Below are positions 11,020 through 46,508 of a stretch of DNA of 64,000 nt, in pieces. The DNA comes from Shinella yambaruensis (lineage in GTDB: Bacteria; Pseudomonadota; Alphaproteobacteria; Rhizobiales; Rhizobiaceae), in NCBI RefSeq assembly GCF_022899355.1, contig NZ_JALJCK010000020.1, positions 1-64,000 on the forward strand, in the 5' to 3' direction. The notes below the pieces were generated by a model. It saw only the letters and a list, made by a program, of their open reading frames with translations, searched no databases and was not told the DNA's origin. The translations under genes were made by a program, and so were the position numbers. The stretch's first letter is position 1. The number at the start of each line of letters is the position of its first letter.

Positions 11020-12831
<1,812 letters not shown>

Positions 12832-27111: not shown

Positions 27112-28159
27112 GGGAAGCCCCTTTCCGGAGAGAGCCGATGCCGAGCGATCCGTCGCCGCGGCGCGAGGGTGGCGGGTCCGCCGCCGCCGGCGCAGCCGCC
27201 TCGGGCGCCGCAACGCCATCGGGCAGGACCGCGTCGAGGAAGGAGGCGGAGGGAATGAAGAACAGCGTGCCGGTGACCGCGCGGCTGAAATCGAGCAGCC
27301 GGTCGTAATTACCCGGCGGACGGCCGATGAACATGTTCTCCAGCATCATCTCGATCCGCCGCGGCGAGCGCGCATAGCCGATGAAATAGGTGCCGAACTC
27401 GCCCTTGCCGACGCTGCCGAACGGCATGTTGTCGCGGAGGATCTCCAGCTGCTCGCCATCCTCCTCGATCGTGGTGAGCGCGTTGTGCGCGTAACTCGGC
27501 TTGGCGGCATCGGAGAGCTCGATGTCTGAAAGCTTTTCCCGGCCGATGATCCTCTCCTGTTCGCAAACCGGCACACGGTTCCAGGCGGCGAGGTCATGCA
27601 GGTATTTCTGCACGATCACATAGCTGCCGCCGGCAAAATCCGGGTCCTCGTCGCCGATGATCGTGGCCGCCACGGCAGCGCCGTCGACCGGGTTTTCCGT
27701 GCCGTCGACGAAGCCGATCAGGTCGCGGTCGTCAAAATAGTTGAAGCCGTGCACCTCGTCTTCCGTCGAAACGAAGCCGGTCAGCCGGCTCATGATCTGG
27801 CTCGCCAGCTCGAAACAGAGATCCATGCGCGCGGCGCGGATGTGGAACAGAAGATCGCCGGGCGTGGCGACCGCATGGTGCTGGCCGCGGATTTCTCGGA
27901 AGGGATGCAGCTCCTTCGGGCGCGGCACGCCGAACAGCCGGTCCCAGGCATCCGAGCCGATGCCGAAGACGCAGGAGAGCCCGCCCTCCAGATCGCGGAA
28001 ACCAACCGCCCGCAAAAGGCCGGACAGATCGGCACAAAGCGCGCGAACCGCAGTCTCGGCCTCCCGGCCGGGCCCGAGCGTGACGACCAGAAAGATGGCT
28101 GCGCGCGTCAGCCGCGCCGCGACCGGCTGCGGGACGACGGAAGGGAGGACTGCATTCAT
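27104..28159 (-). CDS. dyp: DyP-type haem peroxidase, encapsulin cargo
   Basis: 351 aa. The catalytic GFVDGTENP (149-157, Asp152), proximal haem-ligand His225 (SYAHNAL) and distal Arg242 (ILRDNMPFG) are present. A Pro/Ala-rich linker leads to DGSLGIGSLRK (336-346), the encapsulin targeting peptide. It would oxidise peroxides, dyes or haem compounds inside the shell. The ATG at 28159 (MNAVLPS) is preferred to an in-frame upstream ATG because the family starts here; the ribosome site is weak (AGG). First clear gene of the compartment pair. Confidence 0.93.
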   Translation of the reverse strand: MNAVLPSVVPQPVAARLTRAAIFLVVTLGPGREAETAVRALCADLSGLLRAVGFRDLEGGLSCVFGIGSDAWDRLFGVPRPKELHPFREIRGQHHAVATPGDLLFHIRAARMDLCFELASQIMSRLTGFVSTEDEVHGFNYFDDRDLIGFVDGTENPVDGAAVAATIIGDEDPDFAGGSYVIVQKYLHDLAAWNRVPVCEQERIIGREKLSDIELSDAAKPSYAHNALTTIEEDGEQLEILRDNMPFGSVGKGEFGTYFIGYARSPRRIEMMLENMFIGRPPGNYDRLLDFSRAVTGTLFFIPSASFLDAVLPDGVAAPEAAAPAAADPPPSRRGDGSLGIGSLRKGASHE

Positions 28160-28193
28160 GGGCGACCTGCTCGACAATGGCGGGAAGAGACGA

Positions 28194-28745: not shown

Positions 28746-31355
<2,610 letters not shown>

Positions 31356-31406: not shown

Positions 31407-31424
31407 ATTGCAACGGGCATGCCA
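31407..31424 (-). promoter_or_regulatory. Sigma-54 promoter of clpB
   Basis: On the minus strand TGGCATG-CCCG-TTGCAAT: GG and GC dinucleotides are exactly 10 bp apart, matching the -24/-12 consensus TGGCAC-N5-TTGC. It lies 52 bp before the clpB ATG, with the paired activator sites 74 and 97 bp upstream of its -12 position. Confidence 0.85.
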
Positions 31425-31478
31425 GTCTTCATGACGAGAGAAATCAAGGGCTTGCGCTGCAGATTGGCAGCCGCTCAA

Positions 31479-31513
31479 GACAGAGTGTCGAAAAGCCCGC
31501 GGACATTCTGTCC
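31479..31513. promoter_or_regulatory. Paired activator sites GACA-N3-TGTC (clpB)
   Basis: GACAGAGTGTC (31479-31489) and GACATTCTGTC (31502-31512, extended GGACA/TGTCC) start 23 bp apart. The same pair, with the same spacing, occurs at 38250-38285 and 45454-45489. Probable binding sites of the NtrC-type regulator encoded at 33550. Confidence 0.8.
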
Positions 31514-31523
31514 GGCATTCCTG

Positions 31524-33557
31524 TCAGAAATCATCCTCTGTCGCCGGCAGCCAGACCTTGAAGGTCGTGCCTTCGCCGGGCTCGCTGCGGACCGTGATCT
31601 TGCCGCCGTGCTGCGACATCAGCATCTGGCTGATCGAAAGGCCGAGGCCGGTGCCTTCCCGGGATTTGGTGGTGAAGAAGGAAGCGAAGATCCTGCCCAT
31701 CACGTCCGGCGTCATGCCCGCGCCGGTATCGCTCACCTCGATCTCGACGCCGTCCACGCCGCCATGCGCGGCATCGACGGTGCGCAGTCCAAGGCACCCG
31801 CCCCGCGGCATGGCATGGATGGCATTGACGATCAGGTTGACGAGAACCTGCTGAAGCTCCGTCCGGCTCATCCGGATCAGGCGCAGCGCGCGGTCCTCGC
31901 GCTCGACGGTGATCATCGTCTTCTTCAGGAGATGCTGCACCAGCGGCAGAGTGTCGGAAATGACATCGGCCGGGGCATAGTCCTCGGTAAAGCCGGCATA
32001 TTCCTGCGGCTTGGCGAATTGCAAGAGCTTGGTGACGATCTCGGTGATGCGGTTCATCTGCTGGTTGATCAGGCGAAACTCCGTCTTCGCCTCCTCGGCG
32101 CCCGGCCCCATCATGTCGCGGATGATTTCGAGGTTGCCCTGCATGACGGCGATCGGGTTGTTGATCTCGTGGGCAACGCCGGCCGTGATCTCGCCGATGG
32201 CGGCGAGCTTCTCCGACATGACGAGCTGGCGCGTCGTCGTCTCCAGGCGCGCGGCGGTATCGCGCAGTTCGAGCGCCCGCTGCTCCGCCCGCTGGCTGAG
32301 CTGGTCGTTCCACAGGCGAAGCTCCGCGTCACGCGTCTGGATGCCGTCGAGGAGCCTGTCCAGCTCGCTCGCCACGAGACCGATCTCGTCGCGGTTTTCG
32401 ACCGCCCCGGTCCGCGCCGCAAGGTCCCCGTCCTCGACCCGCGCGATGGTCTCCTTCATGCGTTCGAGCGGCCTGAAGATGGTGCGGGCCCAAATGAGGA
32501 AGAGCGGCACCGTGGCGAGGACGGCAAGCAGGAAAGCGACGCCCATCGTCAGCCATGTCTCGTGTTTCGCCTTGGCGAAGGGCGCCTCGACGAAGCCGGC
32601 GTAAAGCATGCCCACCCGGCGGCCGTAGCTGTCCACGATCGGCTCATAGGCCGAGACATACCAGTCGTTGACGACGAAGGCACTGTCGAGCCAGGTCTTG
32701 CCCTGGTCCAGCACCGTGCTGCGCACCTCTTCGGAAACGCGGGTGCCGATGGCGCGCCGATCACCGAACAGGCGTACATTCGTACTGACGCGTATATCGT
32801 CGAGAAAGAGCGTGGCGGTGCCCTGCGTGCCGTCGGGCTGCGTGGAACCGTGATAGATGAGATCGTTGATCGCATCGACGAAACCGAGGTTGCGATTGAG
32901 CAGGATGCCGCCGACGAGCGCGGCACGCCGCCCGTCCGGCAAAAGCAGCGTGGCGGCCGATTGGAGAACGAGCCCGCGCGTCTCGACGAGACCACCCGGC
33001 GCGCCGTCACGCACCACGGGCACGATCTCGACGCGCGCCCTCTCCGCCAGTTGCGGGGAGAGCGCCGAAAGCTCCGAACCGGCGAACACGTCGATCGCCG
33101 TCCTCGACCGGCCGGCAAGCGCCGAAACCACCACCGGCCAGTCCCAGCGCAGCGTTGCGGGCGTCGCCGCCTTGTCGCCGGCAAGGATCTCGCCGTCGTC
33201 AGCAACCACATACAAGAAATCGAACCCGCCGCGCTGCGCGGTCGCCTCGAGATAGACCGGAAACGCCCGGTCCGACTCGTTCCCGGCGCGCAGCAGCTGG
33301 CGGAAGCGCTCGGATTCTCCGATGGCGACCAGCCTGTTTTCGGTGTTTTCCAGAATACGGGAAAGATATTGGCGTGCGATCGTCAGGTCGTCGTTCACCT
33401 TCGCGATCGTCACCGCGTCGAAACGATCGTTCCACCGGTCGATGCCGATCGCGAGCAGGACCGGCAGGACGACCAGCATCGGAACCAGCGCGATCGCCAG
33501 CAGGCGGTAGCGCACCGACCGCCGGAAGAAGCCCGATTTTTCGCTCGCCTCAGCCAT
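31524..33557 (-). CDS. Sensor histidine kinase, partner of the NtrC-type regulator
   Basis: 677 aa. A transmembrane helix near residues 15-35, a large periplasmic Cache-like sensor region (about 40-310), a second helix, a HAMP domain and coiled coil, HisKA with H-box VAHEINNPIAVMQGN, and a HATPase domain (NLIVNAIHAMPRGG, DTGAGM, GTGLGLSI). The start at 33557 overlaps the regulator stop by 8 bp; an ATG 4 codons earlier is also possible. Signal unknown; the large extracytoplasmic domain suggests an external ligand or envelope stress cue. Confidence 0.9.
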   Translation of the reverse strand: MAEASEKSGFFRRSVRYRLLAIALVPMLVVLPVLLAIGIDRWNDRFDAVTIAKVNDDLTIARQYLSRILENTENRLVAIGESERFRQLLRAGNESDRAFPVYLEATAQRGGFDFLYVVADDGEILAGDKAATPATLRWDWPVVVSALAGRSRTAIDVFAGSELSALSPQLAERARVEIVPVVRDGAPGGLVETRGLVLQSAATLLLPDGRRAALVGGILLNRNLGFVDAINDLIYHGSTQPDGTQGTATLFLDDIRVSTNVRLFGDRRAIGTRVSEEVRSTVLDQGKTWLDSAFVVNDWYVSAYEPIVDSYGRRVGMLYAGFVEAPFAKAKHETWLTMGVAFLLAVLATVPLFLIWARTIFRPLERMKETIARVEDGDLAARTGAVENRDEIGLVASELDRLLDGIQTRDAELRLWNDQLSQRAEQRALELRDTAARLETTTRQLVMSEKLAAIGEITAGVAHEINNPIAVMQGNLEIIRDMMGPGAEEAKTEFRLINQQMNRITEIVTKLLQFAKPQEYAGFTEDYAPADVISDTLPLVQHLLKKTMITVEREDRALRLIRMSRTELQQVLVNLIVNAIHAMPRGGCLGLRTVDAAHGGVDGVEIEVSDTGAGMTPDVMGRIFASFFTTKSREGTGLGLSISQMLMSQHGGKITVRSEPGEGTTFKVWLPATEDDF

Positions 33558-34935
33558 ACCAGCTTGCATATTTTCGATCGATGGTCTTGCGCGAAATGCC
33601 GAGGCGCCGCGCCGCTTCCTCCCGGTCGCCGCGCGCCTCCCGCAGCACGGCAAGGATATGCCGCCGCTCCATATCGGCAAGGTTCTCGCTGCGCGGCTGG
33701 TCGTCATCCGCCGCGACAGGCCCGATGCTGGCGGGAAAGCCGCCGAGGATGACGCTGCGCTCGATCAGGTTGCGCAGCTCGCGAATATTGCCGGGCCAGT
33801 CGTAGCGGAGCATCGCGGCTTCCGCCTTCTCGTCGATGCGAACGGGCGGCATGCCGAGCTGCTGGGAGAGTTCCCGCATGAACATGTCCGCCAGTTCCAG
33901 CACGTCCTCGCCCCGGTCGCGCAGGGGCGGAAGATGGATCTGGATGACGTTGATGCGGAAATAGAGGTCCGCCCGGAAGGTACCTGCCTCCACGCGCTTG
34001 GCGAGATCGGCATTGGTGGCGAAGATGAAGCGGGCATCGAAGGGAACCTCTCGCTCCGAGCCGACCGGCCGCACGCGCCGGTCTTCGAGGACGCGCAGCA
34101 GCTTGGTCTGCAGCGGCAGGGGCAGCTCCCCGACCTCGTCGAGAAACACCGTGCCGCCATGCGCATGCAGCATCAGGCCTTCACGGCTGCGGCTGGCGCC
34201 CGTGAAGGCGCCCTTGAGGTGACCAAACAGTTCGCTCTCGATCATGTCCGCCGGAATCGCGCCGCAGTTGATCGGCACGAAGAGCTTGTCGGCCCGGTCG
34301 GACAGCATATGCAGGGAGCGCGCCGCCACCTCCTTGCCGGTGCCCGACTGGCCGGTCAGGAGAACGGATGTCGGCAGCGGCGCGATACGGGCAATCGTCT
34401 CCCGGATGTGCTGGATGGCCTTGGACCCGCCGAGAAGCTTGTTGCGCAGGAGAAGCTGGTGCGACGGCGAGGTCAGTTCGTGGCGCAGCACGTCGTTCTC
34501 GCGCTGCAGCCGCTTGCGGTCCAGGCAGCGGGCAATGGCGTTGAGCAGCTGGTTCGAGCGGAAGGGCTTCAGGATGAAATCCACCACGCCGGCCCGCAGC
34601 GCATCGATGGCCGTGTCGAGGTCGGCATAGGCCGTCATCAGGATGACATCTGCAAAGAAGCCGATGGCGCGCTGCTCGGCCAGCCATTCGAGACCGGTCT
34701 GGCCGGGCATGATGTTGTCCATGATCACGACGTCGAAATTCTGCTCGTCGAGCTTGCGGGACGCCTCCACCGTATTGGCGGCGACATCGATCAGCCGGCA
34801 GCGCGGCCGCAGCGTCTTGATCAGGAAGTTGCAGATGCCGGGCTCGTCGTCGACGATGAGGATCGCGGCCTGGGCCAGCCATGGCCCGAACTCCGCAAGG
34901 CCGGGCGGCTCCGCCGCGCTTTTGTTCTGTCCCAT
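33550..34935 (-). CDS. NtrC-type sigma-54-dependent response regulator
   Basis: 461 aa. Receiver domain with phospho-acceptor Asp73 (VVIMDNIMPG), AAA+ domain with Walker A GQSGTGKE (195-202) and the sigma-54 contact GAFTGA (242-247), and a C-terminal Fis-type helix-turn-helix (EEAARRLGISRKTIDRK). The complete GAFTGA means it should activate sigma-54 promoters. The promoters and paired palindromes in front of clpB, dnaK, moeA and the bestrophin gene are the natural targets. Transcribed after dnaK-cbpA-cbpM. Confidence 0.95.
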   Translation of the reverse strand: MGQNKSAAEPPGLAEFGPWLAQAAILIVDDEPGICNFLIKTLRPRCRLIDVAANTVEASRKLDEQNFDVVIMDNIMPGQTGLEWLAEQRAIGFFADVILMTAYADLDTAIDALRAGVVDFILKPFRSNQLLNAIARCLDRKRLQRENDVLRHELTSPSHQLLLRNKLLGGSKAIQHIRETIARIAPLPTSVLLTGQSGTGKEVAARSLHMLSDRADKLFVPINCGAIPADMIESELFGHLKGAFTGASRSREGLMLHAHGGTVFLDEVGELPLPLQTKLLRVLEDRRVRPVGSEREVPFDARFIFATNADLAKRVEAGTFRADLYFRINVIQIHLPPLRDRGEDVLELADMFMRELSQQLGMPPVRIDEKAEAAMLRYDWPGNIRELRNLIERSVILGGFPASIGPVAADDDQPRSENLADMERRHILAVLREARGDREEAARRLGISRKTIDRKYASWYG

Positions 34936-34960
34936 CGTCCCGTCCTTTCCGTTTCCGCCG

Positions 34961-35242
34961 TCAGTCCCTGTTTTCGCCGACGTGCTTTCGCAGGGCGTCG
35001 AGCGCCTGGCGCATGCCGTGCAGCTGGTCCATCAGGTGCAGGATGACGTCGATGCCGGCATCGTTCGCGCCGAGGCCCGCGCGCAGCTCCAGGATCAGAC
35101 GTGCCCGGGCGATGTCGATCTCCCGGAACCGCGGGCCCGACGGCGTCTGCTCGGGCACCAGCCATTCCTGCGCGATCCACACGTCCACAACCTGTCCCTT
35201 CAGCCCGGCGCTCTCCAGGAACGCCTCCTTGCTCATCGCCAT
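34961..35242 (-). CDS. cbpM: CbpM, modulator of CbpA
   Basis: 93 aa MerR-like small protein: VVDVWIAQEWLVPEQ and PRFREIDIARARLILELRAGLGAND, then a helical LHLMDQLHGMRQALDALR. CbpM binds the J-domain of CbpA and blocks its DnaK stimulation. ATG at 35242 has GAGGAGG 7 bp upstream inside the end of cbpA; the two genes are 2 bp apart. Confidence 0.88.
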   Translation of the reverse strand: MAMSKEAFLESAGLKGQVVDVWIAQEWLVPEQTPSGPRFREIDIARARLILELRAGLGANDAGIDVILHLMDQLHGMRQALDALRKHVGENRD

Positions 35243-35244
35243 GA

Positions 35245-36141
35245 TCAGGCCTCCTCACGCGGATTGAACGCCTGCCCCTTCGCCCAGCCGGCCACGAAGG
35301 CCTCCAACGCCGGGTCCGGCGGGCTCGGCAGAACCACCTTCAGCCGCACCAGCTGGTCGCCGAAGCCCCCGCCCCGACGCGGCGCCCCCTTGCCCTTCAG
35401 CCGCAGCGTCGTGCCCGTGTTCGAGCCCTTCGGAACCGTCATCGTCACCGCGCCCGTGGCCGTCGGAACCCGCACCCGGCTGCCCAGAACCGCCTCGCCC
35501 AGCGAGACCGGCAGCTCGAGCGTGATGTCGTCGCCCTCCCGCGTGAAGCGCGGATCGGCCAGCACCTCCACCTCGATCAGTGCATCGCCCGCCCCGCCGC
35601 CGCCCGGCGCCCCCTTGCCCTTCAGCCGGATCACCTGGCCGCTGACCAGGCCCGGCGGGATCTTCACGTCCAGCGTGCCGCCGTCCGGCAGCGTGATGCG
35701 CCGCGTCGCCCCGGCGATGGAATCGGCGAAGGCGATCTCCAGCCGGTAGTGCAGGTCCGCGCCGCGCCGGTTCGCCCGCCCCTTCTGGCTGCGGCGCAGG
35801 AGGTCGGCGAAGATGTCGTCGCCGTCCATGAAGTCGGCATAGGCCGAGGCATCCGCATAGGGATGGTCCGCCGGCCCGCCGGCATAGTCGCGGTAATAGC
35901 CCTGGCGCGGCGGGCGCTCGGCGCCGGCGGCGTCGATCTCGCCCGCGTCGAAGCGCTTGCGCTTGTCCGCATCGCCCAAAAGGTCATAGGCCGCGGCGAC
36001 CTCCTTGAACTTGTCCTCCGCCGCCTTGTCGCCCGGATTGAGGTCCGGGTGCAGCTTCTTGGCAAGCTTGCGGTACGCACTCTGGATCTCGGCCGCCGTC
36101 GCGCCGGGCACAACGCCGAGAACATCATAGGGACTTGTCAC
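35245..36141 (-). CDS. cbpA: CbpA, DnaJ-like co-chaperone
   Basis: 298 aa. J-domain with HPD (31-33), then a Gly/Asp-rich linker and the two C-terminal substrate-binding domains (RITLPDGGTLDVKIPPG, VKIPPGLVSGQVIRLKGKG); the zinc-finger domain of DnaJ is absent. It stimulates DnaK ATPase and delivers clients. The start is a GTG at 36141, because TTGGAG sits 6 bp upstream; an earlier TTG lacks a ribosome site. Partner of CbpM and the DnaK upstream. Confidence 0.92.
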   Translation of the reverse strand: MTSPYDVLGVVPGATAAEIQSAYRKLAKKLHPDLNPGDKAAEDKFKEVAAAYDLLGDADKRKRFDAGEIDAAGAERPPRQGYYRDYAGGPADHPYADASAYADFMDGDDIFADLLRRSQKGRANRRGADLHYRLEIAFADSIAGATRRITLPDGGTLDVKIPPGLVSGQVIRLKGKGAPGGGGAGDALIEVEVLADPRFTREGDDITLELPVSLGEAVLGSRVRVPTATGAVTMTVPKGSNTGTTLRLKGKGAPRRGGGFGDQLVRLKVVLPSPPDPALEAFVAGWAKGQAFNPREEA

Positions 36142-36239
36142 GACCGGCTCCAAATCGGGTTGTGTCGATCATAATTAGGCCATGGCGGGCTTCCGGCAAC
36201 GAGGCAGACTGCCCCGCCGCCGAATTTCCCCCATCATCC

Positions 36240-38120
<1,881 letters not shown>

Positions 38121-38180
38121 TGCGAACTCCTCCTTGCTGTTGCTCTTCCGGTCGGCGGATGCCGTCGCCATCCGTTTTCT

Positions 38181-38197
38181 CAGCAATGCCCATGCCA
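38181..38197 (-). promoter_or_regulatory. Sigma-54 promoter of dnaK
   Basis: On the minus strand TGGCATG-GGCA-TTGCTG has the GG and GC dinucleotides 10 bp apart. It lies about 60 bp before the dnaK ATG. The paired sites are centred 73 and 96 bp upstream of its -12 position. Confidence 0.85.
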
Positions 38198-38249
38198 GTT
38201 CGCAAGCCGCGGAAATTCAATCATTTAAGAGAAGGAAGGCCACCGCCGC

Positions 38250-38285
38250 AGACAAGCTGTCCGCCTTTCGGGGGACAATCTGTCG
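38250..38285. promoter_or_regulatory. Paired activator sites GACA-N3-TGTC (dnaK/moeA)
   Basis: GACAAGCTGTC (38251-38261) and GACAATCTGTC (38274-38284) start 23 bp apart, midway between the two divergent sigma-54 promoters. The arrangement is symmetric: each promoter has its nearer site 73 bp and its farther site 96 bp from -12. Confidence 0.85.
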
Positions 38286-38337
38286 GCGTGGGGGCCGCCT
38301 CGACGCACAAATCGTTGATTTCGCAATCGCGGCCGCA

Positions 38338-38353
38338 TGGCACGTTTGTTGCA
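38338..38353 (+). promoter_or_regulatory. Sigma-54 promoter of moeA
   Basis: TGGCACG-TTTG-TTGCA matches the -24/-12 consensus, with GG and GC 10 bp apart, 63 bp before the moeA ATG. The best sigma-54 match of the four. Confidence 0.88.
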
Positions 38354-38416
38354 GTCCGTTCGCCGGGAGGGCCATGTGCGGTGACCTTCCGGCATGGCAG
38401 ACAGCGAGGACAGCAG

Positions 38417-39655
38417 ATGACGATGCTCGGAAAGTGGCGCGCGGCAGCGCCATGCACAGCCAAGATGGGGCTCAGGGAGGCGCAGACGATCCTGCGCTCG
38501 CAAGCCGAGCCTGCCGGAACCGAACGGGTTCTGCTCGGCAATGCCGGCTTTCGCATCCTGGCCGAACCTCTTTTCGCCCGCATCGACTCTCCGCGCGAAA
38601 CCGTCGCCGCCATGGACGGTTTCGCGGTGTCGGAAAAGGCCGTTCAGGCCGGCTGCCTCACCTTCGCGCTCGCCGGCGCCAGCTATCCCGGCGACAGCGC
38701 CCCTGCCGGCCGCGATCCCTCCGCAGCCGTGCGGGTGACGACCGGGGCGCCGATGCCGCCGGGCAAGGACCGCGTCATCCCCTTCGAGCTCGTGGAGGAG
38801 ACGCCGGCGACCATCCGCCTCGCCGGCCCGCTTCCCGGCGCACGCCACGTCCGCCTGAAGGCCTCGGGCTTCGAGGCCGGCCAGCTCGTCCTGCCGCGGG
38901 GTACGCTTCTCGACCCCGCAAAGCTCCTCGTGGCGGCGGCATCGGACAATGGCGACGTCCTCGTCCATCGGCGGCCGGGAGTGCGCGTCATCACGAACGG
39001 CAGCGAGCTGGTCGGTGCGGGCCTTGCCGCCGAGACCGGCAATCGCGTGCCGGACAGCCTTTCCCTGCCGCTCCTTCTGATGGCGCGGCAATGGGGTGCC
39101 GACGCCGTCGGCGGCATGCTCTGCCCGGATTATGCCGGCGCGATCCGCAAGGCCGTCCTGGCGGCGCTTGAGGATTGCGACGTGCTCGTCATCGCCGGCG
39201 GTGCCTCGAACGGCGATTGCGACCTCGCCCGTCCCGTCCTGCGCGCGCTCGGTCTCGTCCCCTTCTTCGCGGGCGTTTCGATCAAGCCGGGAAAGCCCGT
39301 CTGGTATGGCAAGGCCGGCGGCGTCCATGTCCTCGGCCTCCCCGGAAACCCCGCCGCCGCGATGACCATCGCCCGGCTTTTCCTCGCGCCCCTCCTCTCC
39401 ACCCTTTCCGGCCGGCCTTTCGCGGCGGCGCTCGACTGGCAGGAGAAGCCGCTCGGCGCGGCCGCCGAGGCGGCGGACCCGATGCGCGACATGGCGCTGT
39501 TCGGCCATCGCGGCCCGGATGGCACCGTCACCATCCTGCCTCGCCAGTCGGCTTCCGCGCAATTGCCGCTGGCGAAGGCGGAGTTGCTCGTGCTGCGCCC
39601 CGCCGGCGGACCGGCCCTGCCGACGGGTGCACCCGTGCCCGTGCTCGACCTGTAG
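38417..39655 (+). CDS. moeA: MoeA-like molybdenum insertase
   Basis: 412 aa. MoeA features: AMDGFAV (the conserved active-site loop), VTTGAPMPPGKDRVIPFE, VRVITNGSEL and LGLPGNPAAAM. It inserts molybdate into adenylylated molybdopterin. GAGGA lies 7 bp upstream of the ATG at 38417. A stress-induced copy next to a molybdoenzyme suggests it supplies cofactor for the FdhF-like protein at 43125; other moa/moe genes are not in the window. Confidence 0.9.
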   Translation: MTMLGKWRAAAPCTAKMGLREAQTILRSQAEPAGTERVLLGNAGFRILAEPLFARIDSPRETVAAMDGFAVSEKAVQAGCLTFALAGASYPGDSAPAGRDPSAAVRVTTGAPMPPGKDRVIPFELVEETPATIRLAGPLPGARHVRLKASGFEAGQLVLPRGTLLDPAKLLVAAASDNGDVLVHRRPGVRVITNGSELVGAGLAAETGNRVPDSLSLPLLLMARQWGADAVGGMLCPDYAGAIRKAVLAALEDCDVLVIAGGASNGDCDLARPVLRALGLVPFFAGVSIKPGKPVWYGKAGGVHVLGLPGNPAAAMTIARLFLAPLLSTLSGRPFAAALDWQEKPLGAAAEAADPMRDMALFGHRGPDGTVTILPRQSASAQLPLAKAELLVLRPAGGPALPTGAPVPVLDL

Positions 39656-39720
39656 GCGGCCGCTTCCACCGCCCACCCTGATCATCGGTCCAAGGCCGCC
39701 TCGCACTTTGCCCGAAATGC

Positions 39721-40284
39721 CTAGCCGCCATCCGCCGCCGCCGCCGGACCGCCCCGCGCGACCCCCACCTTCGCGGCCCGCAACGGACGCGAACCGATGG
39801 CATAACCCGGCGAGACGACCGTGCTGACGGTGCCGCTCGGCACCGAGGGATCGGCCACCTCGAACAGGGCCTCATGGAGGTGGGGATCGAACCGCTCGCC
39901 GAGCGGTTCGATCCGGCGAATGCCGTGTTTCTCGAAAACCTGCATCAGGTCCTTGCCGGTCAGCGCGACGCCATCGGAAAGCGTCTTCAGCACGGCCGAG
40001 CCTCGCCTTGCCTCCGCCGGCACGCTGGCCAGCGCCCGTTCCAGATTGTCGGCGACACCGACGAGGTCGGCCGCGAACTTGCTGACGGCATATTGCCGCG
40101 CATCGCTGACATCGCGCTCGGCGCGGCGGCGCAGGTTCTCCGTCTCCGCGAGCGCCCGCAGCAGGCGGTCCTTGAGGTCGGCGACCTCCGCTTCCAGCCG
40201 CACGACGGCCTCGACGGCGGCTTCGCCGGGTTCCTCGCGGGGCGTCTCCGTTTCCACGTCGTTCGGAGTTGCGGGTTTGCTCAT
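39721..40284 (-). CDS. grpE: GrpE nucleotide exchange factor
   Basis: 187 aa. Long N-terminal coiled coil (about 25-90, RLEAEVADLKDRLLRALAETENLRRR) and C-terminal beta-wing (GVALTGKDLMQVFEKHGI, FDPHLHEALFEV). It releases ADP from DnaK. The ATG at 40284 is chosen because GAGGAG sits 6 bp upstream; the frame opens earlier at 40305. It is in the operon of the cytochrome bd oxidase, away from hrcA, and presumably serves the dnaK at 36240. Confidence 0.93.
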   Translation of the reverse strand: MSKPATPNDVETETPREEPGEAAVEAVVRLEAEVADLKDRLLRALAETENLRRRAERDVSDARQYAVSKFAADLVGVADNLERALASVPAEARRGSAVLKTLSDGVALTGKDLMQVFEKHGIRRIEPLGERFDPHLHEALFEVADPSVPSGTVSTVVSPGYAIGSRPLRAAKVGVARGGPAAAADGG

Positions 40285-40314
40285 GATCTGCTCCTCGCTC
40301 TTCATCGTTGATGG

Positions 40315-40479
40315 CTACCGGCCGGATGCCGCCTCGCTGAACATCGCCGCGCTGCCCGTGAGCACGGCGGCGACGAGCTTGGTGACGGCCACGGCCACAT
40401 TGCCGGCCAGTGCCGCATAGACCGAGGCATGGGCGGCATGCGGTGCCGGCGGGCGCGGATCGGAAAGTGCTGCGTTCAA
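40315..40479 (-). pseudogene. Remnant of a CDF cation-efflux transporter, N-terminal part
   Basis: A 54-codon frame from a TTG at 40479, with GGGAGGAACGG upstream, to a TAG. Codons 19-50 match the first helices of cation diffusion facilitators (VYAALAGNVAVAVTKLVAAV, LTGSAAMFSEA), but the frame stops where the rest of the transporter (SLVDTGN region) should follow. A normal family member has about 300 residues. It lies between the oxidase genes and grpE in one operon, so a transporter gene has probably been lost by deletion. Too short for a transporter. Confidence 0.7.
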
Positions 40480-40505
40480 ATCCGTTCCTCCCTTGCCGCC
40501 GGCCG

Positions 40506-40610
40506 TCAGGCCCGTAGCCAGAACCGCAGGATCGCGGCGACGAGGCCGAGCACGGCGACGCTCGACAGCCAGATCAACAGCATCCAGCCGACCTGCCGCA
40601 CGGTCGGCAT
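40506..40610 (-). CDS. DUF2474 small subunit of cytochrome bd oxidase (CydX-like)
   Basis: 34 aa single-helix membrane protein, MPTVRQVGWMLLIWLSSV, then a short basic end (RFWLRA). DUF2474 proteins sit after CIO-type cydB and are likely a small oxidase subunit. The ATG shares a base with the cydB stop (TGATG), so it is translationally coupled. Confidence 0.85.
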   Translation of the reverse strand: MPTVRQVGWMLLIWLSSVAVLGLVAAILRFWLRA

Positions 40611-41614
40611 CAGTGATATCCGTGGGTGCCGACCTTACCGCGGAACACCCAGTAGGCCCAACCGGTATAGGTCAGGATCAGAGGGATGATGACAAGCGCG
40701 CCGACCAGCATGAAGCGCAGGCTTTCCGTCGGCGCGGCCGCATCGCGGATCGTCACGGCCGGCGGCACGACATAGGGGTAGAGGCTGATGCCGAGCCCGA
40801 CGAAACCGAGCAGGAAAAGCGCCAGCGCCATCAGGAAGGGAAGCCGCTCATGCCCGCGTCGAAGGCTCCAGAAGAGGATGGCCGCGGTGATGGCGACGAG
40901 CAGCGGCACCTGCGCGGTCAGCAACACGCCCGGCATCTCGAACCAGCGCCGCCAGTATTCGTAGTGGAGGTTGGGCGTGGCGGCGCTGACGGCGGCAAGC
41001 GCAACCAGCGTCATGATGCCGAGCCTCCACGCCATCGTCTGCGCATGGCGAAGGCTCGACCCCTCCGTCTTCCAGACCAGCCAGGTGGCGCCCAGCAGCG
41101 CATAGCCGGCAACCACGGCAAGGCCGGTCAGCACGCTGAACGGGCTCAGCCAGTCCAGCCAGCCACCGGCATAGGCGTCGTTCTCCACCGTTATCCCCTG
41201 GAGGATGGCGCCGAGCGTCATGCCCTGCGCAAGAGCCGCGACGACCGAGCCGAGGCTGAAGGCGACATCCCAGACCGGGCGGTGGCGCGGATCACGCCAG
41301 CGGAATTCGAAGGCGACGCCACGGAAGATCAGGCCGAGCAGCATGGCGATGATCAGCGGATAGGTCGCCGGCAGCACGATGGCATAGGCGAGCGGAAAGG
41401 CCGCGAAGAGCCCGCCGCCGCCCATCACCAGCCAGGTCTCGTTGCCGTCCCAGACCGGCGCGATGGAATTCATCGCCTGGTCACGCTCCTCGCCCACCTG
41501 GAGCGTGGGAAACAGGATGCCGATGCCGAGGTCGAAGCCGTCCATGACCACATAGGCCATGACGGCAAAACCGATGATGCCCGCCCAGACGAGCGTGAGG
41601 TCGAGGCTTTCCAT
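40610..41614 (-). CDS. cydB: Cytochrome bd-type quinol oxidase subunit II
   Basis: 334 aa with about eight to nine transmembrane helices. CydB motifs: YVVMDGFDLGIGILFP, APVWDGNETWLV and FRGVAFEFRW. It forms the heterodimer with CydA. The ATG at 41614 starts 5 bp after the cydA stop. Confidence 0.95.
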   Translation of the reverse strand: MESLDLTLVWAGIIGFAVMAYVVMDGFDLGIGILFPTLQVGEERDQAMNSIAPVWDGNETWLVMGGGGLFAAFPLAYAIVLPATYPLIIAMLLGLIFRGVAFEFRWRDPRHRPVWDVAFSLGSVVAALAQGMTLGAILQGITVENDAYAGGWLDWLSPFSVLTGLAVVAGYALLGATWLVWKTEGSSLRHAQTMAWRLGIMTLVALAAVSAATPNLHYEYWRRWFEMPGVLLTAQVPLLVAITAAILFWSLRRGHERLPFLMALALFLLGFVGLGISLYPYVVPPAVTIRDAAAPTESLRFMLVGALVIIPLILTYTGWAYWVFRGKVGTHGYH

Positions 41615-41619
41615 GGCGC

Positions 41620-43032
41620 TTACTCCCTGCCCACCGTGCGGGCGGCGACACCCGAAGCGGGCGTGATGCCCGCTGCGCGCTGCGGCACCTTCTGCGGTTC
41701 GCTCTCGCCCGGCTCCGGCGGTTTGGCCATCAGGCGCAGGAGATAGTAGGTGCCTGCGCCGAAGGCGGCGAAATAGACGATCACGAAGGCGATCAGCGAA
41801 ACGGCGACGGCGGGCGCAGCGAGCGGCGAATGGGATTCGGCCGTGCGCAACAGGCCGTAGACGGTGAAGGGCTGGCGGCCGACCTCCGTCGTCACCCAGC
41901 CGGCGATGACCGCGACGAAGCCGGACGGCCCCATGAGGACGGCGGCGCGGTGCAGCCACGGCCAGTCGTAGAGCTGCCGGCGATAGCGCGCGAAAAGGCT
42001 CCACAGGCCGATGCCCAGCATGGCGAAGCCGAGGCCCACCATCAACCGGAACGACCAGAAGACGATCGGCACCGGCGGCCACTGGTCACGCGGGAAATCC
42101 GTGAGGCCCGGCAGCGGCGCAAACGGATCGTGCTTGAGGATGAGCGATCCGAGATGGGGGATCGACACCTCATAGCGCACGTCCGCGGCCTCGCTGTCGG
42201 GCCAGCCGAAGAGGATGAGCGGCGCGCCATTCGGGCTCGGGCGATAATCGCCTTCCATCGCCAGCACTTTGACAGGCTGGTGCTCCAGCGTGTTGAGGCC
42301 GTGCGCGTCGCCGGCAAGGATCTGGACCGGCGCGACGAGCGCGGCCATCCACATCGCCATCGAGAACATCTTTCGTGCCCCCGGATTGGCCCGATCCCTG
42401 AGCAGATGCCAGGCGCCGACGGCACCGACCGCAAAGGCCGTGGTCAGGTATGCGGCGATGACCGTGTGGACGAGGCGGAACGGAAAGCTGGCCGTGAAGA
42501 CGATATCGAACCACGAGCCCGCCGGAATGAACTGACCCTTGTCGTTGATGGCGAAGCCGGCCGGCGTCTGCATCCAGCTGTTGACGGCGATGATCCAGGT
42601 GGCCGAGATCAGCGTGCCGAGGGCCACCATCGATGTCGCGAAGAAATGCAGGCCCTTGCCGACCTTGTTCATGCCGAAGAGCATGACGCCGAGAAAGCCC
42701 GCCTCAAGGAAGAAGGCCGTCATCACCTCATAGGCCATCAGCGGCCCGATCACCGGCCCCGCCTTGTGCGAGAAGACGGACCAGTTGGTGCCGAACTGGT
42801 AGGACATGACCACGCCGGAGACGACCCCCATGCCGAAGACGACGGCGAAGATCTTCAGCCAGTAGCGGTAGAGGTTGGCGTAGACACCCTTGCCGGTCTT
42901 CAGCCAGAGGCCTTCCAGCACCATGAGATAGCTGGCAAGGCCGATGGAAAAGGCCGGGAAGATGAAATGAAAGGAGACGGTGAACGCGAATTGCGCGCGC
43001 GCCAGCACCACCGGATCGAGCCCATCGAACAC
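41620..43032 (-). CDS. cydA: Cytochrome bd-type quinol oxidase subunit I, short-Q-loop (CIO) type
   Basis: 470 aa. The haem ligands lie in SFHFIFPAFSIG (His22) and the MEGDY/HQPVKVLAMEGDY region. The quinol loop is short compared with the long-loop E. coli enzyme (522 aa), placing it with cyanide-insensitive oxidases. The start is a GTG at 43032 with AGGAGG 8 bp upstream; a much longer open frame reads through the molybdoenzyme gene and is not a fusion. Reduces oxygen to water with low proton yield, useful at low oxygen or under sulfide, NO or cyanide stress. Confidence 0.94.
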   Translation of the reverse strand: MFDGLDPVVLARAQFAFTVSFHFIFPAFSIGLASYLMVLEGLWLKTGKGVYANLYRYWLKIFAVVFGMGVVSGVVMSYQFGTNWSVFSHKAGPVIGPLMAYEVMTAFFLEAGFLGVMLFGMNKVGKGLHFFATSMVALGTLISATWIIAVNSWMQTPAGFAINDKGQFIPAGSWFDIVFTASFPFRLVHTVIAAYLTTAFAVGAVGAWHLLRDRANPGARKMFSMAMWMAALVAPVQILAGDAHGLNTLEHQPVKVLAMEGDYRPSPNGAPLILFGWPDSEAADVRYEVSIPHLGSLILKHDPFAPLPGLTDFPRDQWPPVPIVFWSFRLMVGLGFAMLGIGLWSLFARYRRQLYDWPWLHRAAVLMGPSGFVAVIAGWVTTEVGRQPFTVYGLLRTAESHSPLAAPAVAVSLIAFVIVYFAAFGAGTYYLLRLMAKPPEPGESEPQKVPQRAAGITPASGVAARTVGRE

Positions 43033-43124
43033 TGCCCTCGCCTCCTGTTCCGGCAAGGCTCCGCCCTCGCCCGCCGGGGCGGCGGGCGGCGCCCTGCATC
43101 TCGATAATCGTTCAGACCCGCCTT

Positions 43125-45392
43125 CTATCCGGCGACCACCCGCACCGGTATGGACTTTGCCGCCGGCGTGCCGCTGATCCGGTCGTAATAATCGAGCGGC
43201 AGCAAGGGGTTGAGTTCCGGATAGTAGCCGGCGACCGCCCCGCGGGGCATCGGATAGTCGAGCGCCGTCAGGCCGTCGACGCGCCGCGCCATGCCGTCCG
43301 TGCTGATGGTTTCGAGCGCGATCCGCGCGCCGGAGGCAAGGCCCCGTTCCGCGAGGTCCTCGGCGTTCATGAACAGCACCATGCGGTCGTTGTAGACGCC
43401 GCGATAGCGGTCGTTGTTGCTGTAGATGGTCGTGTTGAACTGGTCGTGCGAGCGCACCGTGGCGAGCCGCAGCATGGCAGGATCGTCGACGACATCGTTC
43501 ACCTCTAGCCCCGGCAGCAGCAGGAAATTCGCCTTGCCGTTCTCCGTCGGCCAGACGAGCCGGCGCGGCGGGATGTCGAGGTGGAACCCCTTCGGATTCT
43601 TGATGCGCTCGGAAAAGCCCGCATAGATTTCGGGATAGACCTCGGCGATCTTGCCACGGATGAGATCGTAGTTGTCGATATAGCTTGCCCAGGGCACCTT
43701 GCTGTCCGGCAGCGTGGCCATCGCCATGCGACAGACGATCTCGACCTCCGGCAGCACATGGGGGCTTGCCGGCGTCAAGACGCCGCGCGAGGCCGTGACG
43801 TTCGCCATGGCGTCCTCGATGGTGACGAACTGCTCGCCCGCCGCCGTGCGGATCCATTCCGAGCGGGCGACGACCGGCAGGATCAGCGCATCGCGCCCGT
43901 GCACCAGATGGCCACGATTGAGCTTGGTGGCGATGCCCACCGTCAGCGCCAGCTTGCGCATGGCAGCGTAGGACCGATCCGTATCCGGGATCGCCCGGAC
44001 GAAATTGCCGCCCATGCCGATGAAGACCTTGGCCGTGCCGTTCTCCATCGCCTCGACGGATTCGACCGTATGGTGCCCGTGCCCGCGCGGCGGCTCGAAG
44101 CCGAAGACGTCGCGCACGCGGTCCAGATAGTCCTGCGAGGGCTTTTCGTCGATGCCGACGGTGCGGTCGCCCTGCACGTTGGAATGGCCGCGGATCGGCG
44201 CGATGCCGGCGCCCGGCTTGCCGTAGTTGCCGCGCAGGAGCAGCAGGTTCGACACCTGCTGCAGAAGGCGCGAGCCCTGCTGGTGCTGGGTGAGGCCCAT
44301 GCCGTAGCAGATGATGGTGGCGCGCGAACGGATGTAGATCTCCGCGCACCGGCGGATCTGCGCCTCGTCGAGCCCCGAGACGCGGACGATCTCGGCCCAG
44401 TCCTGCGCCAGGGCATCCGCGCGGATCGCCTCGATGCCCACCGTGTGCTCCGCGATGAAATCCGCATCGAGCACCCTTTCGCCGGCCGCCTCGCGCTCGA
44501 ACATCACCTTCATCATGCCCTTGATGAAGGAAAGGTCCCCGCCGATCCTGATATGCACGAACTCGCTGGCGATCGGCGTCGAGCCGAAGGTCGCCATCTG
44601 CACGACGTCCTGCGGTTCGGTGAAGCGGATCAGCGCGCGCTCCGGCATGGGATTGACCGCAACGATGGGCGCGCCGCGCTTGCGGGCCTCGACCAGGTTG
44701 GTCATCATGCGCGGCGAATTGGTGCCGGTGTTCTGGCCGATGACGAAGATCGCCTCGGCATGCTCGAAATCCTCCAGCACGACCGTGCCCTTGCCCACGC
44801 CGATGGCCGGCGGCAGGCCGCGGCTCGTCGGCTCGTGGCACATGTTGGAACAGTCCGGGAAGTTGTTGGTGCCGAACGCGCGCACGAAGATCGAATAGAG
44901 GAAGGCCGCCTCGTTCGGCGTGCGGCCGGACGTATAGAACTCCGCCTCGTGCGGGCTCGACAATGCCCGGAGGTGCCGCCCGATCATCGCGAAGGCCTCG
45001 TCCCAGCTGCACGGCACATACCGGTCGCTCGCCGCGTCGTAGCGCATCGGCTCGGTAAGGCGCCCCTGCATCTCCAGCCAGTAGTCGGACTGCGCCATCA
45101 ATTCGGTGACGGTGTATTTCTGGAAGAACTCCCGCGTGACGCGGAACTTCGTCGCCTCGTGGGCGAGCGCCTTGGCGCCGTTCTCGCAGAATTCCAGCGT
45201 CTTCTTGCAATCGGCATCCGGAAAGGCGCAGCTCGGACACTTGAAGCCGCCCGGCTGGTTCATCGCCAGGAGCGCGCGCGACCCCTTGGTGATGACGCTC
45301 TGCTCCATCAGCACCTTGGCGGTCGCGGCAGCGGCGCCCCATCCGCCGGCCGGATGGTTGTAGGTTTTGTATTGCGGCTTTCCATCGGCCAT
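43125..45392 (-). CDS. FdhF/YdeP-family molybdopterin oxidoreductase
   Basis: 755 aa. N-terminal iron-sulfur-type cysteines (CPSCAFPDADC), NMCHEPTSRGL, GQNTGTNSPRM and GAGIAPIRGHSNVQGDRT are the family's core segments, with the C-terminal molybdopterin-dinucleotide domain (LATVRSHDQFNTTIYS). No selenocysteine. E. coli YdeP is linked to acid resistance; here the enzyme may feed electrons to quinones for the adjacent oxidase, an inference. The ATG at 45392 has GGGGAG about 10 bp upstream. First gene of the oxidase operon. Confidence 0.9.
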   Translation of the reverse strand: MADGKPQYKTYNHPAGGWGAAAATAKVLMEQSVITKGSRALLAMNQPGGFKCPSCAFPDADCKKTLEFCENGAKALAHEATKFRVTREFFQKYTVTELMAQSDYWLEMQGRLTEPMRYDAASDRYVPCSWDEAFAMIGRHLRALSSPHEAEFYTSGRTPNEAAFLYSIFVRAFGTNNFPDCSNMCHEPTSRGLPPAIGVGKGTVVLEDFEHAEAIFVIGQNTGTNSPRMMTNLVEARKRGAPIVAVNPMPERALIRFTEPQDVVQMATFGSTPIASEFVHIRIGGDLSFIKGMMKVMFEREAAGERVLDADFIAEHTVGIEAIRADALAQDWAEIVRVSGLDEAQIRRCAEIYIRSRATIICYGMGLTQHQQGSRLLQQVSNLLLLRGNYGKPGAGIAPIRGHSNVQGDRTVGIDEKPSQDYLDRVRDVFGFEPPRGHGHHTVESVEAMENGTAKVFIGMGGNFVRAIPDTDRSYAAMRKLALTVGIATKLNRGHLVHGRDALILPVVARSEWIRTAAGEQFVTIEDAMANVTASRGVLTPASPHVLPEVEIVCRMAMATLPDSKVPWASYIDNYDLIRGKIAEVYPEIYAGFSERIKNPKGFHLDIPPRRLVWPTENGKANFLLLPGLEVNDVVDDPAMLRLATVRSHDQFNTTIYSNNDRYRGVYNDRMVLFMNAEDLAERGLASGARIALETISTDGMARRVDGLTALDYPMPRGAVAGYYPELNPLLPLDYYDRISGTPAAKSIPVRVVAG

Positions 45393-45453
45393 GGCGGACA
45401 CTCCCCGGATGCGACAGAAATCAAGTAAACCATGTTATGCCATTGAAATCCAT

Positions 45454-45489
45454 AGACAATTTGTCCGAGCTACCATGGACAAACTGTCC
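45454..45489. promoter_or_regulatory. Paired activator sites GACA-N3-TGTC (molybdoenzyme/bestrophin)
   Basis: GACAATTTGTC (45455-45465) and GACAAACTGTC (45478-45488, in TGGACAAACTGTCCA) start 23 bp apart. Only the rightward gene has a convincing sigma-54 promoter; the leftward molybdoenzyme promoter is not recognised, although TGGCATA occurs at about 45438-45444. Confidence 0.85.
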
Positions 45490-45542
45490 AAAGCCGCGCA
45501 ATTGCCACAGCCAAGCCGTTGAGTTTGCTCAGCCCTCGCCGC

Positions 45543-45557
45543 TGGCACGCATCCTGC
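45543..45557 (+). promoter_or_regulatory. Sigma-54 promoter of the bestrophin gene
   Basis: TGGCACG-CATC-CTGC, with GG and GC 10 bp apart; the -12 element has C for the first T. The paired sites are 74 and 97 bp upstream of -12. Transcription would start near 45569, leaving an earlier GTG at 45573 without a leader. Confidence 0.75.
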
Positions 45558-45611: not shown

Positions 45612-46508
45612 ATGATCCTGCGTTCAAAACCGAGCTTCAAGGACATCATCTTCGCGATCAACGGCTCCATCCTGCCGAGGATCGCCTGGCACCTCGTGGC
45701 GATGACGGTCCTCTCGGTCATCGCGATCTTCGCCGCGCGGGAACATCCCGGGATCTTCGCGAGGATCAGCGCCATTCCCTTCACGCTGACCGGCATCGCG
45801 CTTTCCGTCTTCATGAGCTTCCGCAACAATGCGTGTTATGCGCGCTGGTGGGAGGGCCGGGTCCTCTGGGGCGAGCTCATCATCGCCTGCCGGTCCTTCG
45901 CGCGGCAGACGGCGGCTCTTGGCGATGACGACCGCCGCTTCCTCCTCCATCGTCTGTGCGCCTTCACGGCGGGCCTCGTCGCACGGCTCCGCGGCGAGGA
46001 CGAGCCGGCCGCCATCCGCCGCTGGCACGATACCGACGTCGATGCCCAAAGCCCCAACCCCACCAACGACGTCCTCGACGGCATCGGCCGGCACTGCCTC
46101 GCGCTGGTGCGCGAGCATCGGATCGGCGAGATCCACTATTCGGTGCTGGAGGGACAGCTCGCGGCGCTCGCAAAGGTCCAGGGGGGATGCGAGCGCATCG
46201 CGCTGACGCCCGTTCCCTTCGCCTATTCATTGCTGCTCCACCGAACGGCGCTGGTCTTCTGCCTGATGCTGCCCTTCGCGCTGGCCGGCTCCCTGGACTG
46301 GTGGACGCTGCTTCCGGTGCTTCTCGTCGCCTATACGTTCTTCGGCCTCGAAGCGCTCGGCCACCAGTTGGAGGACCCGTTCGGCCTCGACCCCAATGCC
46401 CTGCCGCTGGAGGCGATGCAGCGCACCGTGGAGCGGGAGATGCTATCGGTCCTCGGGCATGCGGACCTGCCCGAGCCGATCCTGCCGCGCGACAACGTGC
46501 TGCGGTAG
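45612..46508 (+). CDS. Bestrophin-like (RFP-TM) ion channel, YneE family
   Basis: 298 aa. The conserved FRNNACYARWWEGRVLWGELI and the C-terminal ALGHQLEDPFGLDPNALPLE identify the family (UPF0187). About four transmembrane segments, probably a chloride or other anion channel. The ATG at 45612 is chosen because it aligns with the usual start (MI-R) of relatives and lies 43 bp after the predicted transcript start; the GTG at 45573 has a good purine-rich site but lies only 4 bp after that start. Likely a sigma-54 target. Confidence 0.85.
   Translation: MILRSKPSFKDIIFAINGSILPRIAWHLVAMTVLSVIAIFAAREHPGIFARISAIPFTLTGIALSVFMSFRNNACYARWWEGRVLWGELIIACRSFARQTAALGDDDRRFLLHRLCAFTAGLVARLRGEDEPAAIRRWHDTDVDAQSPNPTNDVLDGIGRHCLALVREHRIGEIHYSVLEGQLAALAKVQGGCERIALTPVPFAYSLLLHRTALVFCLMLPFALAGSLDWWTLLPVLLVAYTFFGLEALGHQLEDPFGLDPNALPLEAMQRTVEREMLSVLGHADLPEPILPRDNVLR

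Follow-up and report, generated by a model that had tools for sequence, protein, structure and literature searches.

A putative sigma-54 regulon with paired GACA-N3-TGTC sites in a chaperone island of Shinella yambaruensis

Activators of the NtrC family (NtrC, AtoC, ZraR and others) carry a receiver (REC) domain, an AAA+ domain with the GAFTGA motif and a Fis-type helix-turn-helix (HTH), and are associated with upstream palindromes and -24/-12 promoters. The textbook arrangement of sigma-54 promoters has the order enhancer, IHF site and promoter, and the NifA-dependent nif promoters are built in this way. Here we analyzed a 64,000-nucleotide stretch of Shinella yambaruensis DNA (contig NZ_JALJCK010000020.1, positions 1 to 64,000; hereafter the window), in which a chaperone gene cluster encodes an NtrC-type response regulator with its kinase and carries three pairs of the palindrome GACA-N3-TGTC near -24/-12 promoters. 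An earlier reading of the bare letters (the original prediction) had proposed a dedicated stress regulon at this place. Our results suggest that the cluster likely forms a small sigma-54 regulon under the control of its own two-component system.

The regulator resembles the NtrC family in its domains, its upstream palindromes and its promoters, yet it falls under the cut-off of all the best 25 of 111 matched NCBI models (366 of 714 bits for AtoC, 360 of 559 for NtrC). The window promoters resemble nif promoters in that activator sites, an IHF-like site and the -24/-12 element follow in the same order, and differ from them in having two palindromes about two helical turns apart, with another motif. 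A further parallel comes from Desulfovibrio vulgaris, where the paralogous sigma-54 response regulators DVU0539 and DVU0946, linked to lactate use and transport, have one binding site in common, according to the portions of the sources available to us (PMC3333781, PMC4641369). This likeness (two paralogues sharing one site, and a lactate-type transport link) is drawn from the published descriptions, and the targets listed in those portions include no chaperone island. The mechanism proposed below is of a known kind. Neither the motif (searched in three written forms) nor the target set, the motif-regulator pairing or the capture of a chaperone island was found in the literature searched, and to that extent the statement in the original prediction that it knew of no regulon with this motif stands.

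GACA-N3-TGTC occurs seven times in the window, against 0.66 expected from shuffles. Six of the copies form three pairs with a start-to-start spacing of 23 bp in each, at the positions originally reported (no strand is assigned to these palindromes). The first pair consists of GACAGAGTGTC (31479..31489), proximal for the clpB promoter, and GACATTCTGTC (31502..31512), distal for it. The second, GACAAGCTGTC (38251..38261) and GACAATCTGTC (38274..38284), is common to the dnaK and moeA promoters and is placed symmetrically between these two divergent promoters. In the third, GACAATTTGTC (45455..45465) is distal and GACAAACTGTC (45478..45488) proximal for the bestrophin promoter, and the former also lies ~60 bp upstream of fdhF. 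The seventh copy, at 12597, is unpaired. The whole 6.87 Mb genome has three 23-bp pairs, all within this cluster, and the reversed-pattern control gave 0. When 2 mismatches were allowed, one extra place appeared (C4:15954, 1 mismatch), and the control likewise gave one. Relaxing the gap to 2-32 bases added a single genome pair, C28:271967, with a spacing of 20 bp.

Promoters were scored against the -24/-12 consensus with a simple scheme (maximum 22). The top four of the 11 window promoters scoring at least 19 are those of clpB (TGGCATGCCCGTTGC, 31410..31424, minus strand), dnaK (TGGCATGGGCATTGC, 38183..38197, minus strand), moeA (TGGCACGTTTGTTGC, 38338..38352, plus strand) and bestrophin (TGGCACGCATCCTGC, 45543..45557, plus strand), with scores of 21-22 and with the C of the -12 element at 31410, 38183, 38352 and 45557, respectively. 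The site centres are found 74 and 97 bp from -12 for clpB and bestrophin, and 73 and 96 bp for dnaK and moeA, so that the four promoters and the distances of 73-74 and 96-97 bp first described were confirmed. A genome-wide search for a site with TGGC-N8-TGC at the correct distance returned exactly five places: the four window promoters and one at C28, which adjoins a paralogous regulator.

The regulator gene (33550..34935, minus strand) codes for a protein with REC, Sigma54_activat and HTH_8 domains and the GAFTGA sequence, as found in NtrC-type (group I) enhancer-binding proteins. The gene beside it (31524..33569, minus strand) codes for a sensor histidine kinase with a tandem Cache-like sensor followed by HAMP, HisKA and HATPase domains; an activator with GAFTGA and its kinase had been predicted here. 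The recognition helix (RKTIDRK and close variants) is almost invariant across the regulator family. At E <= 1e-90 the regulator was detected in 28 of 199 genomes of the order, four of which had only regulators of 39-43% identity, and at E <= 1e-100, with 5 candidates scored per genome, in 41 of 297 Rhizobiaceae genomes. A 19-24 bp pair was present in 34 of 297 Rhizobiaceae genomes. Regulator and pair occurred together in 30 genomes, the regulator only in 11, the pair only in 4 and neither in 252 (Fisher p ~1e-27), so that the pair accompanies the regulator in 30 of its 41 genomes and is found in 4 of the 256 others; the table presumes the same 297 genomes in both searches, and the genome handles match wherever both list them, the regulator search listing part of the set.

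A comparison of loci gave a similar picture. Of 70 orthologous loci, 48 carried a 13-50 bp pair, against 0 of 70 loci surrounding other NtrC-type regulators, which served as controls (34-44% identical, from many phyla, GC 0.58 vs 0.61). A site within 250 bp upstream accompanied 49 of 59 strong promoters, versus 0 of 38 in the controls, and the distances clustered at 73-74 and 94-97 bp. Among the 75 loci collected, which include distant members down to 44-48% identity, 58 show a perfect site shortly after the kinase gene; a 19-24 bp pair is present in 38 and is accompanied in 36 by a promoter 72-75 bp from the proximal centre. Pairs track the regulator in the related genomes whose scanning had been proposed, at a near-fixed distance to -24/-12 promoters, and the original prediction thus withstood its own refutation test of enrichment in orthologous clusters. 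The possibility that the geometry is an artefact of chance or composition, which had been denied from the outset, is refuted by this linkage. The window and genome counts (3 pairs versus 0 in the control) and the site-plus-promoter pattern also speak against it, nothing in its favor was found, and we give it practically no credence. On this evidence we are strongly confident that the regulator is the protein that would bind the paired sites.

At all four window promoters an IHF-like site, absent from the original prediction, lies between the paired sites and the -24/-12 element. Relative to the IHF consensus YAAN4TTGATW, the sites of clpB (CAAGCCCTTGATT, 31442..31454, minus strand) and moeA (CAAATCGTTGATT, 38308..38320, plus strand) have 0 mismatches, and those of dnaK (TAAATGATTGAAT, 38215..38227, minus strand) and bestrophin (CAAGCCGTTGAGT, 45512..45524, plus strand) have 1; these coordinates were read by hand, and the computed centres are one base higher. 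We then aligned 50 different segments, each combining a perfect proximal site with a promoter 72-75 bp away. An IHF-like match (at most 1 mismatch, within the site-to-promoter interval) was observed in 40 of the 50, against ~1.8 expected from shuffled segments that preserve base composition only, and 38 of the 40 fell at one position, ~38-40 bp upstream of the C of -12. The 75 loci and the 50 promoters are related sequences and not independent trials. The promoters of clpB, dnaK, moeA and bestrophin thus have the GG-N10-GC element, upstream palindromes and an intervening IHF-like site of a sigma-54 promoter with an IHF-assisted enhancer. Because the IHF-like sites complete the textbook order, they strengthen the sigma-54 reading, and it is highly probable that the four operons are activated through sigma-54 and IHF.

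Several observations weigh against a strict coupling of regulator, paired sites and promoters. No perfect site is present just downstream of the kinase in 17 of the 75 loci, two of which end too close to judge; outside the island type described below the spacing varies (19-24 and 42-45 bp); and several distant members have no good -24/-12 promoter. Four Rhizobiaceae genomes have a pair and no regulator; in one of them, G786, the fetched 20-kb stretch showed no match to a window gene and no promoter near the pair. Pairs of G287 and G327 also lie within stretches without a regulator match. In G705, a full-scoring -24/-12 promoter after the kinase (L235:4052) has no upstream GACA-N3-TGTC, and in G681 a paired-site promoter divergent from dnaK (L104:15138-15240, score 22) precedes no identified gene and no MoeA match. 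To these is added the pair beside fdhF, which four genomes retain at ~50-105 bp from the gene, with a spacing of 23 bp in the window (45392-45488) and 22 bp in G681 (L104:18330-18362), G468 (L236:11348-11380) and G705 (L239:13958-13990). None of the four has, toward fdhF, a -24/-12 element of acceptable quality at the required distance, a point that had been overlooked for the third pair. Within the window the fdhF-side pair would serve bestrophin; elsewhere it may repress fdhF or act with another promoter type.

The genome comparison also yielded separate observations. G657, which has no regulator, carries the same 23-bp pair on six contigs, on three of them at position 53-54, and it resembles a repeat element. 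At L072:1230-1332, ~8 kb from the regulator gene, a -24/-12 promoter is found 75 bp from a 22-bp pair. A regulator 57% identical to that of the window occurs in L150, a record titled Nocardioides marinus; under this actinobacterial label it reflects transfer or contamination.

The usual neighbor of the system is a transporter. At 55 of the 75 loci the kinase gene is followed, no more than 1.2 kb away and on its own strand, by a gene for an OFA-family transporter, which is annotated as 'OFA family MFS transporter' in the Shinella, Rhizobium and Methylorubrum plasmid records. The Shinella genome itself harbors a second copy of the system, not seen in the original prediction, at L063 (C28:264700-284600), with an OFA transporter, the 20-bp pair of the same motif and a regulator that is 73% identical to the window regulator. 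It could be argued that the palindromes of the window are mainly sites of this paralogue, or of both regulators, so that by cross-talk the island answers the signal of the transporter system. The shared motif is compatible with this, as are the nearly identical recognition helices and the sensors of the 5 island-type and 33 transporter-type kinases (mean identity 56% in the sensor and 67% in the kinase core), which show few fixed differences, mostly conservative; because of this last point the two kinase types probably read a similar signal. However, G468, G681 and G705 gave a single regulator each (E <= 1e-90 or 1e-100), of the island type, a result that covers these three genomes and not those of L144 and L145. 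Since only the island-type regulator was returned there, a C28-type copy is not required in these genomes, and we consider cross-talk of this kind improbable.

The assignment of the sites to the encoded regulator was also examined through the islands of other genomes. Five further island-type loci were identified, in G468 (L064/L236), G681 (L104), Rhizobium sp. ICMP 5592 (L144), an Afipia metagenome-assembled genome (MAG; L145) and G705 (L235/L239). Pairs spaced 23 bp lie 73-74 and 96-97 bp from the dnaK promoters of G468, G681, ICMP 5592 and G705, and 23-bp pairs are found upstream of clpB in G468, G681 and ICMP 5592, as well as in the Afipia MAG, there with a 167-residue open reading frame (ORF) in between. 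At the Afipia dnaK promoter, a perfect site is accompanied 21 bp away by one containing a mismatch, and G705 has no clpB beside the kinase. Five island regulators form one clade (support 100/99), to which the G705 regulator is sister (100/99). In ICMP 5592 an extra paired-site promoter lies ahead of a gene for a DUF308 protein; among NCBI models this protein best matches HdeD (acid resistance), at a score under the cut-off (46.5 of 189 bits).

Two related islands lack the regulator in the stretches fetched. The Methylorubrum extorquens AM1 megaplasmid (L247, NC_012811.1) carries a similar island with a DnaK (83%), a ClpB (83%), a DyP peroxidase and an encapsulin, and an Azospirillum brasilense plasmid (L248, NZ_CP059451.1) one with HdeD, GrpE, DnaK, ClpB, Hsp20 and universal stress proteins. 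Both share the GrpE-DnaK-ClpB core with the window, AM1 also the co-chaperone, the CbpM-like protein, the DUF2171 protein, DyP and encapsulin. In contrast to the window, the fetched stretch of neither contains GACA-N3-TGTC or a regulator of this family; in AM1 one partial 37% match to another NtrC-type gene was obtained. Since these regulator-less stretches have no site, the sites come and go with the regulator in the cases examined, namely the fetched stretches of the two islands. The same data bear on the idea that a different protein uses the palindromes as operators, such as a heat-shock repressor in the form of the small HspR-like protein encoded beside the co-chaperone. Such a gene is present in the cluster (34961..35242, minus strand), with a weak HspR match (24.2 bits, cut-off 105); we presume it to be CbpM from its position beside the cbpA-like gene. 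Against this, a CbpM homologue was matched in 4 of the 75 loci, all of the island type, while pairs occur at many transporter-type loci, and the AM1 island has a CbpM-like gene and neither regulator nor site. Control by such a protein is very improbable.

What the kinase perceives was approached through its neighbors and its sensor region. Of 33 long loci, a set from which four island-type loci are left out, 18 had a formate dehydrogenase (FDH) alpha gene scoring >280 bits within ~10 kb, versus 0 of 70 controls; for a score >400 bits the count was 16 of 33 versus 0 of 70. An FdhF/YdeP gene (>300 bits) occurred in 2 of the 33, one of them already with FDH alpha, versus 0 of 70. Two FDH alpha subunits that were scanned exceed the NCBI Fdh-alpha cut-off. 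By sequence, the sensor region matches two chemoreceptor ligand-binding domains, 8py1 (E 1.4e-4) and 8py0. A 2025 paper describes PacF and Atu0526 as chemoreceptors that bind formate and reports, in the part available to us (PMC12501870), that altering residues R142, T145 and T158 of PacF has an effect on this binding. The kinase has R261, T264 and T277 (numbering from a 682-residue reading with its start at 33572), and all 73 sensors matched among the 75 loci retain them. Their R-x2-T-x12-T spacing equals that of the PacF residues given in that part of the source, an equivalence that rests on spacing and the 8py1 alignment. The PacF-type proteins share the Cache-type sensor with the kinase; they are chemoreceptors and not kinases, and the window kinase has an extra sensor module before the matched one. 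These data suggest, as a clue and not a proof, a formate-type sensor.

Other evidence counts against formate. The control loci of the FDH count were shorter on average (15.7 vs 19.9 kb), and the R/T/T triad may be a common feature of this Cache subfamily. Three OFA transporters were scanned, and all fell just under the cut-off of the NCBI L-lactate model SfMCT (305.8, 314.0 and 317.3 vs 320) and far below those of the oxalate/formate models (TIGR04259, TIGR00890), and were not classed as oxalate/formate antiporters. Because they score nearest to the L-lactate model, the signal may also be lactate or a different monocarboxylate. The ligand is not settled by the fold of the sensor, which is as similar to DctB as to CitA, LuxQ and others. 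There is almost an even chance, in our estimate, that formate or a close small carboxylate is the signal; the formate dehydrogenase genes and the R/T/T spacing speak for formate. The alternative that the signal is another small carboxylate (lactate, pyruvate, oxalate) or external acid, which would suit the transporter scores, the sensor fold and the HdeD-like gene behind the extra ICMP 5592 promoter, we likewise judge to be nearly evenly balanced. A role in weak-acid or formate stress is a possibility that we put forward tentatively.

In the working model, the tandem-Cache kinase would detect a small carboxylate, perhaps formate, outside the cell and, as domains and adjacency suggest, phosphorylate the NtrC-type regulator. 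Regulator dimers would then bind the two palindromes 23 bp apart, a step consistent with the tight linkage across genomes, which would form an enhancer centred ~85 bp upstream of -12. IHF would bend the DNA between enhancer and promoter at the site seen in the sequence, and the AAA+ domain would open sigma-54 RNA polymerase at the predicted promoters of clpB, dnaK, moeA and bestrophin. Self-amplification of the system is probable, since dnaK is followed on its own strand by the regulator and kinase genes. With regard to evolution, a regulator family usually found beside an OFA-family carboxylate transporter would have had one branch tied to a DnaK-ClpB-encapsulin-cytochrome bd island, the host keeping both copies. 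A fuller scenario is speculative and, as a whole, rather unlikely: a formate-type sensor system was duplicated, and a moving protein-repair island captured it; the outcome would be a sigma-54 chaperone response triggered by formate or weak acid, apart from the usual heat-shock control, and the sister systems, which share the operator sequence, may be insulated by the 23 versus 20 bp spacing and by kinase-regulator pairing.

The remaining genes of the island are as follows. DnaK (36240..38120, minus strand) heads the same-strand run dnaK-cbpA-cbpM-regulator-kinase, in which the DnaJ-domain co-chaperone (CbpA-like) was identified by a domain/family match (35245..36153, minus strand). Downstream of the ClpB disaggregase (28746..31355, minus strand; domain match), the same strand continues with a DUF2171 protein, a small ORF, a DyP-type peroxidase (27104..28183, minus strand; TIGR01413, 290 bits vs a cut-off of 100.5) and a family 1 encapsulin shell protein (26311..27117, minus strand; NF041155, 345.5 bits vs 100), a probable member of the clpB operon; both starts are approximate. 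Encapsulin and peroxidase genes adjoin each other downstream of clpB (26311-28183). On the other side of dnaK lie a MoeA-like molybdopterin molybdotransferase (38417..39655, plus strand), whose best matches are MoeA models, under their cut-offs; a GrpE-like nucleotide exchange factor (39721..40305, minus strand), named from sequence and with a 54% match to the annotated GrpE of L248; and the cytochrome bd subunits II (40610..41614, minus strand; domain match) and I (41620..43002, minus strand; PF01654, start approximate). Then come an FdhF/YdeP-family molybdopterin oxidoreductase (43125..45392, minus strand; TIGR01701, 896.1 bits vs 582.15), which misses the E. coli YdeP equivalog cut-off (820.4 vs 1473 bits), and a bestrophin-family channel (45612..46508, plus strand; PF25539), with its start set downstream of the promoter. 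The genome encodes another DnaK (78% identical, C5), another full-length ClpB (72%, C34) and one sigma-54 gene; because of the former two, the island is a second chaperone set.

The original interpretation is partly supported overall. Its core, that the encoded regulator would govern a local sigma-54 regulon, has good support from the comparison of genomes, and within this genome the site-plus-promoter pattern is confined to this cluster and one place at C28. The phrase 'dedicated stress regulon' covers part of the picture, since the family stands mostly with an OFA transporter, in many cases with a formate dehydrogenase nearby, and its stress-island members make up one clade; signal and stress role we infer. 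For this sigma-54 two-component family of rhizobia and their relatives, of which no description was found, the analysis provides a motif, a regulator and a list of five target promoters. The island looks like a clean case of regulatory capture, in that the sites are present at the six island loci that carry the regulator and absent from the two similar regulator-less islands that were examined. If the signal is indeed formate or another weak acid, carboxylates of root and soil would be tied to the expression of chaperones and cytochrome bd.

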